From positions 1 to 28,325 of IMG/VR virus record IMGVR_UViG_3300017768_000057: DNA of 28,325 bases, one strand, 5' to 3'. Under the pieces are notes generated by a model, which did no database searches, was not told the DNA's origin, and worked only from the letters and a program-made list of their open reading frames with translations. A program made the translations under genes and the position numbers. The stretch is from a virus. Shown here piece after piece: positions 4,696-17,633 of this stretch. How positions within the stretch are numbered: position 1 is the stretch's first letter; each line of letters begins with the position of its first letter.

Positions 4696-5303
4696 GCAAT
4701 TTAATCGTAGATATTATCCCATTAAAAGTTGATAGATTATTAGTAGAATCATCAATCAAAGCTGGAGGTCCATTAATTGTGGAAGGAATTATCCAGAGAG
4801 CAGGTGTTAAAAACCATAATGGTCGTATTTATGAAAGACAAATTCTTGAAAGAGAAATGGGTAAATATACTGATGGACCCATTAAAGAAAATAATGCGTT
4901 AGGTGAATTAGATCACCCGGATTCTTCTGTTATTAACTTAAATAATGTATCCCATAAAATTAACAAATGTTGGTGGAATGGAAATGATATACATGGTCAA
5001 ATAGAAATCCTTCCTACTCCCTCAGGTAATATAGCAAAAGCATTATTCCAATCAGGAATCCCTGTTGGCATTTCTTCTAGGGGGATGGGTTCGGTACAAG
5101 AAAACTCAGATGGTGTTTTAATGGTTCAAGAAGATTTTGATCTATTATGCTTTGACTTAGTATCTACACCATCAACCCCTGGGGCTACATTAACTCCCCA
5201 ACAATTAAAGGAAGGTATAGAACACCCTACAGCTAATTACACTAAAATACACAATATTATTCGTGATATTATTTGTGATAATACGGGAGTGTGTAAGTGT
5301 TAA
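4692..5303 (+). CDS. Prohead maturation protease, gp21-like
   Basis: Serine protease (T4 gp21 type) that sits inside the prohead, digests the core and trims the capsid protein before packaging. It has 203 aa, close to T4 gp21 (212). The fold signature is present: VEGIIQRAGVKNHNGRIYER (30-49), the catalytic-His region GELDHP (His75), and the catalytic-Ser region VGISSRGMGS (Ser128 or Ser129). Asp155 in CFDLVSTPS is a candidate third residue. The ATG overlaps the TGA of the preceding tiny gene (ATGA), and GGACAAGGAAG before it lies inside that gene, so it is a weak argument for Shine-Dalgarno use. The stop overlaps the stop of the convergent minus-strand gene by three bases. Confidence 0.92.
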   Translation: MSNLIVDIIPLKVDRLLVESSIKAGGPLIVEGIIQRAGVKNHNGRIYERQILEREMGKYTDGPIKENNALGELDHPDSSVINLNNVSHKINKCWWNGNDIHGQIEILPTPSGNIAKALFQSGIPVGISSRGMGSVQENSDGVLMVQEDFDLLCFDLVSTPSTPGATLTPQQLKEGIEHPTANYTKIHNIIRDIICDNTGVCKC

Positions 5304-5536
5304 TCATCACCGAAAAATCCTTTAATAAAATGGTAAATAAAAATGGCTGATGCTAAGGGCCATCCTAATACTACCCAGAATCTATCTGACCATTCCATAG
5401 GATATCCTGCTCTAGTAATAGTACCTTCAAGAAAAGCTCCTATAATAACCCCAATTAAAAAGTACATGCATACGGTTTGGGGATCGGTAATGTCATGGAT
5501 AAATGCTTGTGCTAATATTTCTAGTGGATTCATCAT
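5300..5536 (-). CDS. Small two-helix membrane protein, only minus-strand gene
   Basis: A 78-aa protein beginning MMNPLEILAQ, with two hydrophobic segments: about 21-40 (TVCMYFLIGVIIGAFLEGTI) and about 52-75 (RFWVVLGWPLASAIFIYHF), joined by a short polar loop containing EWSDR. It ends GFFGDD. The frame stays open to 5707, but the upstream part translates the hairpin region into an unlikely peptide, so I start at the Met pair encoded at 5531-5536; AAGGA (complement of 5548-5552) lies 11 bases upstream. It is the only gene on this strand and sits between protease and scaffold, converging on the protease stop. A holin-like, superinfection or other host-membrane role is possible, but nothing in the sequence decides. 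Confidence 0.7.
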   Translation of the reverse strand: MMNPLEILAQAFIHDITDPQTVCMYFLIGVIIGAFLEGTITRAGYPMEWSDRFWVVLGWPLASAIFIYHFIKGFFGDD

Positions 5537-5543: not shown

Positions 5544-5601
5544 GTTTTCCTTAAAGATATGAAAAAATTTTTTGGTTTCCAAATTATTTTTATATTTATT
5601 T

Positions 5602-5684
5602 GGGAAGCATACACTATCTTAAAATAGTGTCCCTGGATTTTAAAAAATAAATCCCTATTAGAGATATTAAAATCTCTATTTCCC
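5602..5684 (+). ncRNA. Structured leader: three hairpins inside a closing stem
   Basis: Three perfect hairpins follow one another: ACACTAT/ATAGTGT with loop CTTAAA (5611-5630), GGATTT/AAATCC with an 8-base A/T loop (5635-5654), and TAGAGAT/ATCTCTA with loop ATTAAA (5659-5678). GGGAA (5602-5606) can pair with TTCCC (5680-5684) to enclose all three, giving a four-way junction of about 83 bases. GGGA can also pair with TCCC at 5630 or 5652, so alternative folds exist. It lacks the arm lengths and T-loop of a tRNA. It lies in the probable 5' leader of the scaffold and capsid mRNA. Role is unknown: leader cis-regulator, mRNA stabiliser, processing site or small RNA. Confidence 0.5.
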
Positions 5685-5723
5685 GTACATAATTTACTGG
5701 AAGCCAATTAAAACTTAAATAAC

Positions 5724-6824
5724 ATGGCTAAAGAACTATTAAAAGAGGCTATTGCCGACGCAAAAGCCGTTAGAGAAGTCGCTTTGCAAAACGCTAAAAT
5801 GGCGTTAGAAGAAGCGTTCGACTCTAAAATTAAAAACATGCTCTCTGCTAAATTAGCTGAAGAGATTGAAGAAGATGTCGAACTCGAAGAGATGTATGAT
5901 GAAGACGAAAAGTCTGAAGGTATGTCTTACGACGAGGACGATAAAGTAGATGAAATGTCTTATGATGAAGACGATTCAATGGATGAAGTTGACGAAGAAA
6001 TCAACCTTGATGAACTCATGGCTGAACTCGAAGAAATGTCATACGATGAAGACGATGATATGAAAGAGGGTAAGAAAGACGATGATGACATGAAGGAAGG
6101 TAAAAAAGACGACGACGACATGAAAGAAGGTGCCCAACTTGACGAAATGGTAGGTTTAGCCGCTGTTGGTAGCATAATTGCTGCTGCTGGTGGTATTGAA
6201 GCTATCTTACAAAAAGGTCGTGCTGGTAAACTTTCTGGTAAAATGGAAGCCGTTTACAAAGCTTTAGAAGGTATGGCTGCCGGTGCTGGCGCTGCCCGTA
6301 GAAGCGAAGGTAAAAGCGAAGATGAAACCAATGAGAATATCGACATCGATGCTTTAATTTCCGAAATTGAAGAAGAAATTGAAGAAGGCAAAAAGAAAAA
6401 AGATGATGATGACGACATGAAAGAAGGTAAAAAGAAAGACAAAGAAGAAAAGGAAAAAATGAAAGAAGAGCTCGCTGAAGCGCTTTCAACCGTTAATTCT
6501 TTAAAATCTACTATCTCTGAAATGAACCTCCTCAACAGCAAACTCCTCTACTGCAACAAACTCTTCAGAGCTAATGCATTGACAGAAGCACAAAAAGTTA
6601 AGGTGGTTGACGCCTTAGACAAATCTACTACAACTGGCGAAGCTAAATTGGTATTTGAAACCCTTCAAGAATCATTTAACTTTACAGGTGTAGAAAAGAG
6701 AGCAATTAAGGAAGGTTTAGGTCGTGCTTCTAAAGCCGCTGGAACCGCTCCTAAAAAGGTTATAATGGAATCCGCTGACGAGACAGTGTCACGATTCCAA
6801 AAACTCGCAAACATTAAACTTTAA
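5724..6824 (+). CDS. Prohead core (scaffold) protein, gp22-like
   Basis: Internal scaffold around which the capsid shell forms, later degraded by the prohead protease. The 366-aa protein is very acidic, with three EMSYDEDD-type repeats (about 66-111) and DDDMKEGKK-type repeats (about 111-136 and 228-238). The C-terminal signature LLNSKLLYCNKLFRANALTE (269-288) followed by QKVKVVDALDK and ending SRFQKLANIKL matches the gp22 family in T4-like phages. Unusually, the acidic middle is interrupted by a Gly/Ala-rich, largely uncharged segment at about 140-192 (including VGSIIAAAGGIEAILQ). The codons are richer in C than in neighbouring genes, as in the capsid gene, fitting high expression. It lies directly after the gap with promoter-like and hairpin elements. 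Confidence 0.88.
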   Translation: MAKELLKEAIADAKAVREVALQNAKMALEEAFDSKIKNMLSAKLAEEIEEDVELEEMYDEDEKSEGMSYDEDDKVDEMSYDEDDSMDEVDEEINLDELMAELEEMSYDEDDDMKEGKKDDDDMKEGKKDDDDMKEGAQLDEMVGLAAVGSIIAAAGGIEAILQKGRAGKLSGKMEAVYKALEGMAAGAGAARRSEGKSEDETNENIDIDALISEIEEEIEEGKKKKDDDDDMKEGKKKDKEEKEKMKEELAEALSTVNSLKSTISEMNLLNSKLLYCNKLFRANALTEAQKVKVVDALDKSTTTGEAKLVFETLQESFNFTGVEKRAIKEGLGRASKAAGTAPKKVIMESADETVSRFQKLANIKL

Positions 6825-6836
6825 ACTTAAGAACCT

Positions 6837-8528
6837 ATGAATGTAAATACATTATTAGAAGGATCTAACCCATATAAGCAATACAGCGATGAAGCTGGTA
6901 AGCTTGCTAATAAGTGGGAAAGATCTGGTCTTTTAGAGGGTATTGACCTCTCTAATGAGACTGAAAAAACAAATATGGCTGTTCTCCTTGAGAACCAAGC
7001 TAAACAGTTAGTCCAAGAGGCTAATAGCTTAGGAGCTTCTGGTGCTGGTACATCTATCACTGCTGGAGGTTCAGAAGCATGGGCTGGTGTCGCTCTTCCA
7101 CTTGTTAGAAGAGTATTTGGTGAAATCGTAGCTAAGGACCTCGTGTCTGTTCAGCCTATGAACTTACCTTCTGGCCTGATCTTCTACTTAGATTTCCAAT
7201 ATGGCTCAAACCAACCTGGATTCACCGCTGGAGATTCATTATATAATGCAGGAGCTGATGAAGCTACAGACATCCCAAGCGCTGGTGGAACTGGTGGTCT
7301 TTATGGTGCTGGTCGTTTCGGTTACTCTATTAACGAAACTTCTTCATTATTAGCCCAAGCTGGTGGTGCTGTAAGCACAACTGCTGCTACTACAGCATCT
7401 GCTGAATATGGTGGTATTTTAAACTTTGATACCCAATTCTCCGCTTCTAAAGCAGGTAACTTTGGTGCTCTTGGTGGTAAAAAAGTAGTAACGTTATCTT
7501 TCCCAACTGCTTCGTTAGTTGATTTTGATCCTGAAGGTGTAAGAGCATACAGAGTAGCTGCAAGCGCTAACTTACCTGCTGCCAATGTATTCCCTCAATT
7601 CACTAGAATAAATGGTGGTCAAATTGAATTTGTAGTAGAACAAACTGCTGCAAATACTACATTAGGTAATGTAACTGTTACTTACCAAAAGGGTCCTGAT
7701 AACCTCAACGATAGAGGCGACTTTGAAGATACTAAAGGACCAGATGCTGGTATTGGTGATCTTCAGATTCCTTCAATCGATGTTAAGCTCAACAGTGATA
7801 CTGTTACAGCGAAAACTCGTAAGTTAAAGGCTCAATGGACACCAGAATTCGCTCAAGACCTCAATGCTTATCACAGTATTGATGCTGAGGCAGAATTAAC
7901 GTCTATCCTTTCTGAATACATCTCAATGGAAATCGATCTTGAAATCCTTGACATGCTTATCAGAAACGCTGATACTACTAAGAGATGGAGTGCTAAAGTT
8001 GGCCGTGAAGTAGCTGATACAGGTACAACTGCTGCAGCTGCATTTACAACTGCTGCTAATAATGAGTACTACACTAAGATGTCTTGGTTCCAAACTTTAG
8101 GTATCAAGCTTCAGGATGTTAGTAACACTATCCACCAGAAGACTCTTCGCGGTGGCGCTAACTTCATGGTAGTTTCTCCAAAAGTAAGCACAATCCTTGA
8201 ATCAATTCCTGGATTCGCTGCTGACTCACCTGGTGATTCTAACAAGTACGCAATGGGTGTTCAAAAGATTGGTGCTATTAACTCTAGATACACTGTCTAC
8301 AAGAACCCATACATGACTGAGAATGTGATCCTTATGGGTTATAAGGGTAACCAGTTCCTCGAAACAGGTGCTGTATTTGCTCCATATATTCCATTAATCA
8401 TGACTCCACTTGTATATGATCCGATTTCCTTCACTCCACGTAAGGGAATTATGACTCGTTACGCTAAGAAGATGGTTCGCCCAGACTTCTATGGTAAAGT
8501 AATCTGTTCAGATCTTAACCTAGTGTAA
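6837..8528 (+). CDS. Major capsid protein, gp23-like
   Basis: Forms the hexamers of the head shell (HK97 fold). It has 563 aa (T4 gp23 is 521). The N-terminal segment before SGAGTSITAGGSEAWAG is the usual cleaved arm; the T4 protease prefers (L/I)xE, and E61 in QLVQE/ANSLGAS lies close to the T4 position (65), with LLE (32-34 and 50-52) as alternatives. The following GVALPLVRRVFGEIVAKDLV (84-103) and VQPMNLPSGLIFYLDFQYG are capsid-family hallmarks, as is the C-terminal KGIMTRYAKKMVRPDFYGKV. A Gly/Ala/Thr-rich stretch (about 130-260) may be a surface insertion. Codon choice is richer in C and G at third positions than in the fibre genes. A strong terminator follows the stop. Confidence 0.95.
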   Translation: MNVNTLLEGSNPYKQYSDEAGKLANKWERSGLLEGIDLSNETEKTNMAVLLENQAKQLVQEANSLGASGAGTSITAGGSEAWAGVALPLVRRVFGEIVAKDLVSVQPMNLPSGLIFYLDFQYGSNQPGFTAGDSLYNAGADEATDIPSAGGTGGLYGAGRFGYSINETSSLLAQAGGAVSTTAATTASAEYGGILNFDTQFSASKAGNFGALGGKKVVTLSFPTASLVDFDPEGVRAYRVAASANLPAANVFPQFTRINGGQIEFVVEQTAANTTLGNVTVTYQKGPDNLNDRGDFEDTKGPDAGIGDLQIPSIDVKLNSDTVTAKTRKLKAQWTPEFAQDLNAYHSIDAEAELTSILSEYISMEIDLEILDMLIRNADTTKRWSAKVGREVADTGTTAAAAFTTAANNEYYTKMSWFQTLGIKLQDVSNTIHQKTLRGGANFMVVSPKVSTILESIPGFAADSPGDSNKYAMGVQKIGAINSRYTVYKNPYMTENVILMGYKGNQFLETGAVFAPYIPLIMTPLVYDPISFTPRKGIMTRYAKKMVRPDFYGKVICSDLNLV

Positions 8529-8551: not shown

Positions 8552-8579
8552 AAAGGGCCGCAATTTGCGGCCCTTTTTT
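8552..8579 (+). terminator. Intrinsic terminator after the capsid gene
   Basis: An 11-bp perfect stem, AAAGGGCCGCA paired with TGCGGCCCTTT, with a 3-base loop ATT, runs into six T residues. It lies 24 bases after the capsid stop and before the phoH-like gene. It is the clearest rho-independent terminator in the window and separates the scaffold-capsid unit from what follows. Confidence 0.92.
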
Positions 8580-15936: not shown

Positions 15937-16113
15937 ATGGCAAATATAAAATTAGAACCTAATCAAATGGCCTTTTTAGTGGCCGCTTCTAAAAACGCTA
16001 CTATTCAAGGTAAAGATGCTGTCATAGTAGCTAATATTATTACAACTTTAGAAAAAGAGCTTGAAAAAGCTTCTATTCCCCCTGAAGTAGCCGCTAAGAG
16101 AAAACAATCCTAA
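15937..16113 (+). CDS. Small unrecognised protein (58 aa)
   Basis: An ATG after an A-rich stretch (AAAAATAAAAAGTT) opens a 58-codon frame. The product begins MANIKLEPNQMAFLVAASKN and continues as a helical sequence with ITTLEKELEKASIPPE and a basic end KRKQS. There is no membrane helix of convincing length, although MAFLVAA and AVIVANII are hydrophobic patches. Like the 59-aa protein at 12758, it stands between fibre genes without being fibre-like. The function is unknown. Confidence 0.6.
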   Translation: MANIKLEPNQMAFLVAASKNATIQGKDAVIVANIITTLEKELEKASIPPEVAAKRKQS

Positions 16114-16133
16114 TATATTTATTGTTAAGGATA

Positions 16134-16181
16134 TTATTGGCCTCCGGGAAGTGGGCGGCATTAAGTCGTAACCAACCGTAA
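16134..16181 (+). other. GC-rich intergenic island with imperfect hairpin
   Basis: In the 80-base gap before the S74 fibre gene, the 21 bases from 16139 are about 80 percent G+C (GGCCTCCGGGAAGTGGG and on), against an AT-rich surrounding. TTA.TG.CC.CC (16134-16145) can pair imperfectly with GG.GGCATTAA (16154-16164) around a GGGAAGTG loop, with one bulge and two mismatches. CGTAA is repeated at 16167 and 16177. There is no T run, so it is not a classical terminator. It might be a translational or transcriptional control element of the following fibre gene, or an imported scrap; unassigned. Confidence 0.4.
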
Positions 16182-16193
16182 TAGACAAAACAC

Positions 16194-17633
16194 ATGCCGA
16201 ACTGGAAAAAAGTCTTACTTTCAGGCTCTAAAGCCTCTTTATACGATATTACTTCAAGTAATTTACCTGCTGAAGCTGGTAGCACTAATAATATATTAAG
16301 TATAGATGGTTCTGGGCATTTCCAAATAACTACTAGGGGTGATATCGGGGGCAGTGTTTCAGCAGGTACTGGTATATCAGGTACAACTACATTTAATATA
16401 GCATTAGATGAAGTTCCAAACCCTGGCTTTGGTGTTGCATCTGACTCAACAAATGTTTTAGATTTAGCAGAAACAGCTTCTCTTAGTAGATCTGGTATTG
16501 GTGGTGCTGATAAACTTATTATTGGTGGAGCATCCGCAGGCAGTTATAAAAATATAGAATATATAACTAAAGATTATGATAGCACTAATTTAGGCCATTT
16601 ATTTAAAGTAGGTAGTGTAACTCATTTAGCATTAGATGAAGTAAGCACTGCACGAAAGGTATCAGTTAACCCTGATGGTAGTGATATAGATTTTGCAGTT
16701 TACTCTAATGGCAATTCTACTCCCAACATGTATCTTGAGGGCAGTACCGGTCACGTAGGTGTAGGTACTGATTCACATGTTCTTACTCCAAATACTTTTA
16801 ATGTTAGTCACACAGGAGCTGACGGTGATGGGGGGATTATGATCATCAGGAATGATACAAGCATTTCTTCTGGTAATTTTTTAGGAGGTATAGGATTTGA
16901 TGGGCGTGATGGTAATGTTCCTAGCGGTATAACAGAAGCATCAGCATATATAGCAGCTTATGCTCTTCAAAATCACTCCACTACTGAGAAAGGGGGTAGA
17001 TTAGTATTTGGTGTAAGTAGGAAAGATGATAATGATGATACTACTTCATACGCAGTACTACATGTTCAATACCCTAATACAACTACTAATAATGGAAGAA
17101 TTGGAATTAATAATGCTGCCCCAAGCTATGCTTTAGATGTATTAGGTAACAGCACAAGCTATGTAGCACGAATTCGAAATGATAATTCGGGTAACAATAC
17201 AAGTGCTGATGGTTTAAATATTACTATTGACGGGACAAATTCCACAAGTAGAAATTTTATAGGATTTAGGGGTAATAATCAATTTTGTGGGGCTATTAGA
17301 TCTGCTGGTAATAATAATAGTATAGCTATAACATATAGTTCAGATAAAAATCTGAAAAAAGATATAGTCCCTACTAAATATTCTGTTGATGATTTAATGA
17401 AAATTAAAATTAAAGATTTTACATGGAAATCTTCTGGTGAAACAGACACAGGGGTTATAGCCCAAGAACTACATGAAATTTTACCTAAATCTACTTATGC
17501 TCCCAAAAAAGATGAACATTGGACTGTTGATTATACTAGCTTAGTTCCCTATCTAATTAAATCTATTCAAGACCAACAAAAAATGATTGAAGATCTTCAA
17601 CAAGAAATTAAAACCTTAAAACCACAAACCTAA
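16194..17633 (+). CDS. Tail fibre with C-terminal S74 intramolecular chaperone
   Basis: 479-aa fibre protein. The N-terminus MPNWKKVLLSGSKASLYDIT is of the 'WKKVLLSGS' type shared with the two genes upstream. A 'GIN-AAPSYALDVLGN' stretch near 305-320 is the GIGT-type fibre motif. Residues 383-479 are the intramolecular chaperone domain (peptidase S74, as in endosialidases): SDKNLKKDI holds the Ser383-Lys388 dyad in the correct S-D-x-x-x-K spacing, then DTGVIAQELHEILP, VDYTSLVPYLIKSIQDQQ and a C-terminal coiled coil. In this family the domain folds the trimer and cuts itself off in front of the Ser, leaving about 382 residues in the virion. It is the only gene in the window with this domain. 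The stop overlaps the next ATG. Confidence 0.9.
   Translation: MPNWKKVLLSGSKASLYDITSSNLPAEAGSTNNILSIDGSGHFQITTRGDIGGSVSAGTGISGTTTFNIALDEVPNPGFGVASDSTNVLDLAETASLSRSGIGGADKLIIGGASAGSYKNIEYITKDYDSTNLGHLFKVGSVTHLALDEVSTARKVSVNPDGSDIDFAVYSNGNSTPNMYLEGSTGHVGVGTDSHVLTPNTFNVSHTGADGDGGIMIIRNDTSISSGNFLGGIGFDGRDGNVPSGITEASAYIAAYALQNHSTTEKGGRLVFGVSRKDDNDDTTSYAVLHVQYPNTTTNNGRIGINNAAPSYALDVLGNSTSYVARIRNDNSGNNTSADGLNITIDGTNSTSRNFIGFRGNNQFCGAIRSAGNNNSIAITYSSDKNLKKDIVPTKYSVDDLMKIKIKDFTWKSSGETDTGVIAQELHEILPKSTYAPKKDEHWTVDYTSLVPYLIKSIQDQQKMIEDLQQEIKTLKPQT

Follow-up and report, generated by a model that had tools for sequence, protein, structure and literature searches.

The gap upstream of the scaffold and capsid genes

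What is the series of hairpins that precedes the scaffold and capsid genes of a T4-type head module, and does it serve as the 5' leader of their mRNA? The question is raised by a viral contig of 28,325 bases (the window), which carries a T4-type head module with genes for terminase, portal, a gp21-like protease, a gp22-like scaffold and the gp23 capsid protein (Table 1), and whose nearest named isolate is Flavobacterium phage immuto. The original prediction placed three hairpins, folded into one four-way junction, in the only long gap of this module. The gap is there, but a minus-strand gene takes much of it, and the free leader space left beside that gene is ~187 nt. The 78-residue product of the minus-strand gene has no matches in Pfam or PHROG. 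In other clades, the place of this gene is occupied by bS21.

Table 1. Features in and around the gp22-gp23 transcription unit of the window
Feature	Position	Strand	Remarks
78-aa gene, conserved, apparently a membrane protein	5303-5536	-	Divergent from gp22
TTTGGTTTCCAAA inverted repeat	5571..5583	+	Precedes the promoter-like element; conserved in most members of the window's clade
TATATTTAT late-promoter-like element	5591..5599	+	Directional ATATTTAT counts; predicted transcript start ~5604-5607
H1	5611..5630	+	ACACTAT[CTTAAA]ATAGTGT; 7 bp, loop CUUAAA; covariation in relatives
H2	5635..5654	+	GGATTT[TAAAAAAT]AAATCC; 6 bp, loop UAAAAAAU; specific to the window's clade
H3	5659..5678	+	TAGAGAT[ATTAAA]ATCTCTA; 7 bp, loop AUUAAA; covariation in A3 and A4
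H4	5679..5703	+	UUUCC(Y)GUA...UAC(Y)GGAAG; abuts H3 directly; found de novo by RNAalifold in A1 and A4
gp22-type prohead scaffold gene	5724..6824	+	Between the gp21 protease and gp23; relatives keep a KEAIADAK N-terminus
gp23 major capsid protein	6837..8528	+	Pfam PF07068, E 1.8e-78
Intrinsic terminator GGGCCGCAATTTGCGGCCCTTTTTT	8555..8579	+	Closes the gp22-gp23 unit; GC-rich hairpin and T run, read by eye

A row of hairpins

H1, H2 and H3 lie exactly where they had been predicted. As RNA, the segment 5602-5684 folds at -22.3 kcal/mol, whereas shuffles average -10.3 (z -4.66, with 0 of 200 shuffles as good); the longer segment 5545-5730 gives a z of -4.24 against shuffles, and the likely transcript, 5604-5726, a z of -4.73, with a further hairpin, H4, present in the fold. 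The proposed four-way junction fared differently. Its closing stem, GGGAA/TTCCC, pairs only when 5602-5684 is cut out alone, and is missing from the minimum-energy folds of both 5545-5730 and 5604-5726. Nor do close relatives support it, with 62.9% of cells paired and 22 of 35 sequences unable to form the outer pair. The TTTCC of this stem pairs downstream instead, as H4, which was found by RNAalifold on 35 close relatives and is present in all 35, in the form UUUCC(Y)GUA...UAC(Y)GGARG. Because the closing stem is poorly paired and its UUUCC is used in H4, the element is a row of hairpins and not a four-way junction. The three-hairpin unit also proved not to be the intrinsic layout: H2 is limited to the window's clade, and only H1 and H3 make up the constant core.

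H4 varies among clades. In alignment A4 it is 86% paired, with changes that are mostly one-sided, and in relatives that have a Shine-Dalgarno (SD) sequence, the 3' strand of H4 is that sequence. In the window, GGAAG lies ~20 nt from the gp22 start codon, too distant for an ordinary SD. The A5 clade has neither H4 nor an SD sequence; a mechanism based on SD occlusion therefore cannot hold in general.

Conservation among close relatives

A search with gp22 yielded 26 loci. For 20 of them (L002-L021, best-segment identity 56-100%), coverage of gp22 begins in its start region, and the leader core is exact in all 20. A pattern scan yielded 46 stretches, with gp22 following in every context listed. 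The scan pattern demanded 28 exact core bases, and the conservation of H2 and H3 in the pattern-selected set is partly due to selection; a protein-anchored set is free of this bias. Mean identity of the core in the pattern-selected set is 93.7%, compared with 72% for the synonymous third positions in adjacent codons of gp22, and the linkers between hairpins are kept far beyond synonymous sites in the window's clade. RNAalifold detected compensatory changes at three pairs of H1, whereas H2 is invariant in the 35 close relatives. In alignment A3, H3 is 100% paired and covaries, compared with 78% of cells for H2, in which four of the six pairs are unpaired in 5-6 of 22 sequences.

Covariation, strand and copy number in distant relatives

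Homologues were retrieved with a covariance model of the close clade at E-values from ~5e-6 to 0.1; almost all of them lie before gp22, on the same strand. To this we added 111 non-redundant gp22 upstream regions gathered by protein motif alone. At least one perfect hairpin (at least 6 bp, within the last 140 nt) is present in 108 of the 111, compared with 49% of shuffles, and at least two in 72 of the 111, compared with 10% of shuffles. The core that is constant over the 111 relatives is H1 plus H3; in most of them both hairpins are of 7 bp, closed by a U-A pair around a six-base loop that approximates YYYAAU. Loops of CCCAAU, CCUAAU, CUUAAU, CUCAAU and CUCUAU all occur, and loop length ranges from 5 to 10. 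The start-to-start spacing of H1 and H3 is commonly ~42-48 nt. The loop rule holds for 115 of 156 7-bp hairpins near gp22, compared with 44 of 696 elsewhere, many of these 44 being the same hairpins read backwards.

Two alignments, A4 and A5, cover clades other than the window's and were made with MAFFT, unfitted to structure. H1, H3 and H4 emerge de novo from A4; from A5, H1 emerges de novo and H3 only partly, owing to misalignment. In A4, H1 is 94.6% paired and all seven of its pairs have changed on both sides somewhere, while H3 is 100% paired and covarying; when the pairing partners are slid as a control, overall pairing falls to 40-50%. In A5, H1 is 95% paired with five covarying pairs, compared with 14-53% when slid. 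Compensatory base changes, whose lack in related phages had been named as grounds for abandoning the leader reading, are thus abundant. Stem mismatches on the mRNA strand, by curation, comprise ~19 G-U and 3 A-C; this excess of G-U over A-C identifies the gp22-strand RNA as the folded molecule.

A second covariance model, R2, built from A4 only with the window's clade excluded, matches the window at 5589-5709 with an E-value of 2.6e-6. It has a single match in the immuto genome, directly before gp22, and its best match in Microcystis phage Mel-JY01 is also the gp22 leader, at a weak E-value of 0.007. One clear copy is present in each of 15 contigs (44-187 kb), one of which has a second match with an E-value of 0.09. 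A single clear copy per genome rules out a general leader of late mRNAs. No leader match with an E-value below 1 was obtained for classical T4, pelagiphage HTVC008M or cyanophage P-SSM3, in which the gaps upstream of gp22 measure 30, 8 and 55 nt, respectively. An exact scan for the core in ~85,000 bacterial and archaeal genomes, which addressed host origin, gave no match.

The transcription unit

The motif ATATTTAT, part of the promoter-like element, occurs in 74 of the 111 gp22 upstream regions, compared with 2 for its reverse complement. The same directionality is seen at genes across relatives: 221 of 903 plus-strand genes have it upstream, compared with 26 in reversed orientation, and the counts for minus-strand genes are 18 and 3. 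Measured from the first base of ATATTTAT, H1 begins 14-27 nt downstream, with 16-17 nt the commonest spacing; the motif is usually 16-24 nt before H1. Judged from sequence, ATATTTAT is a probable late promoter common to many genes, and the leader is therefore not simply part of every late transcript. The TTTGGTTTCCAAA repeat may be a site for a late activator or an upstream promoter site. In the intergenic gaps of the window, ATATTTAT(A/T) is found at 1568, 3468, 3488, 5592, 12730 and 16115; it resembles T4's TATAAATA on the other strand. A T4-style TATAAATA at 5536 was considered and rejected as a promoter, the window holding 9 copies compared with 9.3 expected, with no enrichment.

The covarying mRNA-strand structure lies between the promoter-like element and the start codon, which bears out its assignment to the probable 5' leader of the scaffold-capsid genes. 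A leader beginning downstream of 5684 would contradict this assignment, but the likely promoter precedes all of the hairpins, and from its position we infer the transcript start. At the other end of the unit, the terminator is missing from the list of a simple terminator scan, and similar terminator-like sequences follow gp23 in the 8 relatives inspected, from several clades. The transcription unit is composed of a predicted promoter and start, the leader, scaffold, capsid and terminator.

Relation to known RNA families

As had been suspected, the leader matches no named RNA family: with Rfam 15, neither the window nor 12 diverse relatives gave a match at gathering threshold, the best weak match being STnc220 (22.8 bits, compared with 60 needed). 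It is not a tRNA either, ARAGORN reporting 0 tRNA or tmRNA genes. A literature search did not find such a scaffold-capsid leader described. In phage P22, an unrelated phage with an unrelated scaffold, scaffolding protein that is not yet assembled represses its own production post-transcriptionally, a functional precedent for which we know of no twin-hairpin leader. The TwoAYGGAY motif reportedly has two hairpins with a common loop motif, like the twin hairpins here. It differs in loop sequence, and it comes from the human gut, gamma-Proteobacteria and Clostridiales and is not a phage capsid leader (PMC2864571). The manA and wcaG motifs are likewise conserved leaders, in marine T4-like cyanophages (PMC2864571), but they precede metabolic genes and have no Rfam match to the window or its relatives.

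The closest systems are found in T4 itself, where gp32 and gp43 repress their own mRNAs via leader structures (PMC3014915). The gene 43 operator resembles the present leader in being a hairpin ~40 nt upstream of the start codon, with a UAAC or UAAA loop, that mediates autoregulation (PMC3014915); it consists of one hairpin before a replication gene, in contrast to two matched hairpins before scaffold-capsid genes. It was rejected as the identity of the leader, which in every relative examined is followed by gp22 and not by a DNA polymerase gene. The gene 32 leader is also a structured T4-type mRNA leader under autogenous control (PMC3014915), built from a pseudoknot and an A+U-rich stretch, whereas here we find simple tandem hairpins. 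The leader thus appears to be an undescribed RNA family of a known general kind, the structured cis-regulatory leader, its regulatory role being predicted. Its carriers are T4-like phages, probably Bacteroidota-infecting. It represents a strongly covarying family without an Rfam entry, at the scaffold-capsid operon of a widespread marine phage group.

Phage bS21 and the Shine-Dalgarno sequence

One large clade has a phage gene for ribosomal protein S21 (bS21) immediately ahead of the gp22 leader (L050:3451-3724, L082:3622-3928, L152:4278-4505 and similar loci). That Bacteroidetes phages can have bS21 genes in their head module was already known (PMC9723584). We found bS21 nearby in 39 of 105 loci, and in 37 of these 39 it lies 123-208 nt before gp22. 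GGAG or GAGG is present near the gp22 start in 32 of the 39 bS21 loci (82%), compared with 15 of the 66 others, and at other genes in 31% compared with 5%, an enrichment of about six times; these counts are uncorrected for shared ancestry, which confounds the association. The GGAG of gp22 in the bS21 clade is the 3' strand of H4.

The leader (H1 plus H3) is retained even in clades that have no bS21 nearby and no SD sequence; the 160-kb immuto genome and most long contigs from these clades lack bS21. Any link between bS21 and the twin hairpins is therefore not general, and as a universal ligand bS21 is rejected, being missing from many leader-carrying genomes. One member of the bS21-carrying group, Microcystis phage Mel-JY01 (L152, PP395634.1), has a Bacteroidota-type head module, bS21 and the weak leader match, and its stated cyanobacterial host may be questionable.

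Proposed function and alternatives

With moderate confidence, we consider the element a cis-regulatory leader of gp22-gp23, whose twin hairpins would bind a putative protein and thereby tune scaffold-capsid translation or mRNA life. Transcription would start right after TATATTTAT, so that H1 folds near the 5' end, and H3, followed by H4 where present, would stand just before the ribosome site. A single RNA-binding protein may read both H1 and H3, because their loops are nearly the same (YYYAAU; UUAAA in the window). A protein that reads loops is suggested because the same loop occurs twice, stem sequence is free, gene context is fixed and the copy is single; and because that one copy per genome stands before one operon, the control is likely gene-specific. 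The ligand would most likely be a phage virion or late protein, an excess of which would damp the translation of gp22 (and gp23) and so set scaffold:capsid supply, with H4 transmitting the control where it covers the SD sequence. Feedback on scaffold-capsid synthesis would be the most economical purpose. The old question of scaffold/capsid balance in T4-type phages thereby becomes testable in a defined leader.

Several of the same observations could be explained without a protein. A passive leader, in which H1 would block 5'-end-dependent decay and H3 would open the start region and organize the ribosome site, is possible and would suit both the position of H1 close to the likely 5' end and stems that vary freely while pairing is kept. 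Such a role leaves unexplained why loops should be constrained and common to both hairpins, why the leader stands before one operon only though other late genes have the same promoter-like element, and why linkers in the window's clade are conserved beyond synonymous sites. Selection of translation by phage-modified ribosomes is a doubtful alternative, according to which phage bS21 would free the anti-SD for the SD of H4, or bS21 would bind the leader. Bacteroidota ribosomes normally ignore SD sequences, bS21 and its partners hiding the anti-SD, and ribosomes without bS21 initiate on SD mRNAs (PMC9976891). The adjacency of bS21 to the leader and the SD enrichment in those loci also fit this alternative; the persistence of H1 and H3 without nearby bS21 or SD, the lack of bS21 in immuto and the confounding by ancestry speak against it.

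A role at the DNA level, as operators of a dimeric transcription factor or as a replication or packaging site, is very unlikely. The hairpins do form perfect inverted repeats, spaced by 6 nt and close to a promoter, which fits such sites. A DNA site would be expected to conserve its arms, however, and here the arms diverge widely with compensatory changes, loop length varies, and G-U outnumbers A-C on the mRNA strand. Least probable is processing of the leader into a separate small RNA, which had been offered as one option: the element is compact and conserved, but it is always joined to gp22 with the start codon close behind, and no terminator-like site lies between leader and gp22 on the plus strand. 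A more elaborate form of the favored cis-regulatory reading is speculative and improbable as a whole: the widespread, single-copy twin-hairpin RNA would be a scaffold-capsid feedback operator in Bacteroidota T4-like phages, wired in one large clade to phage bS21, with phage-altered ribosomes reading the otherwise unused SD of H4. The bS21-SD link offers a concrete test of why Bacteroidota phages have their own S21.

Additional observations

In immuto, the leader is overlapped by immuto26A_203, annotated as a 30-aa hypothetical protein (L151:10608-10700; MW353175.1 125506-125598) and probably spurious. A candidate structured leader before window gene 16194 was rejected, as 16112-16200 folds no better than shuffles (z 0.67). 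An S74-peptidase-domain gene has the unusually GC-rich GGCCTCCGGGAAGTGGGCGGC (window 16139-16163) in its leader; exact copies of this GC-rich core occur in only 3 other contig stretches.
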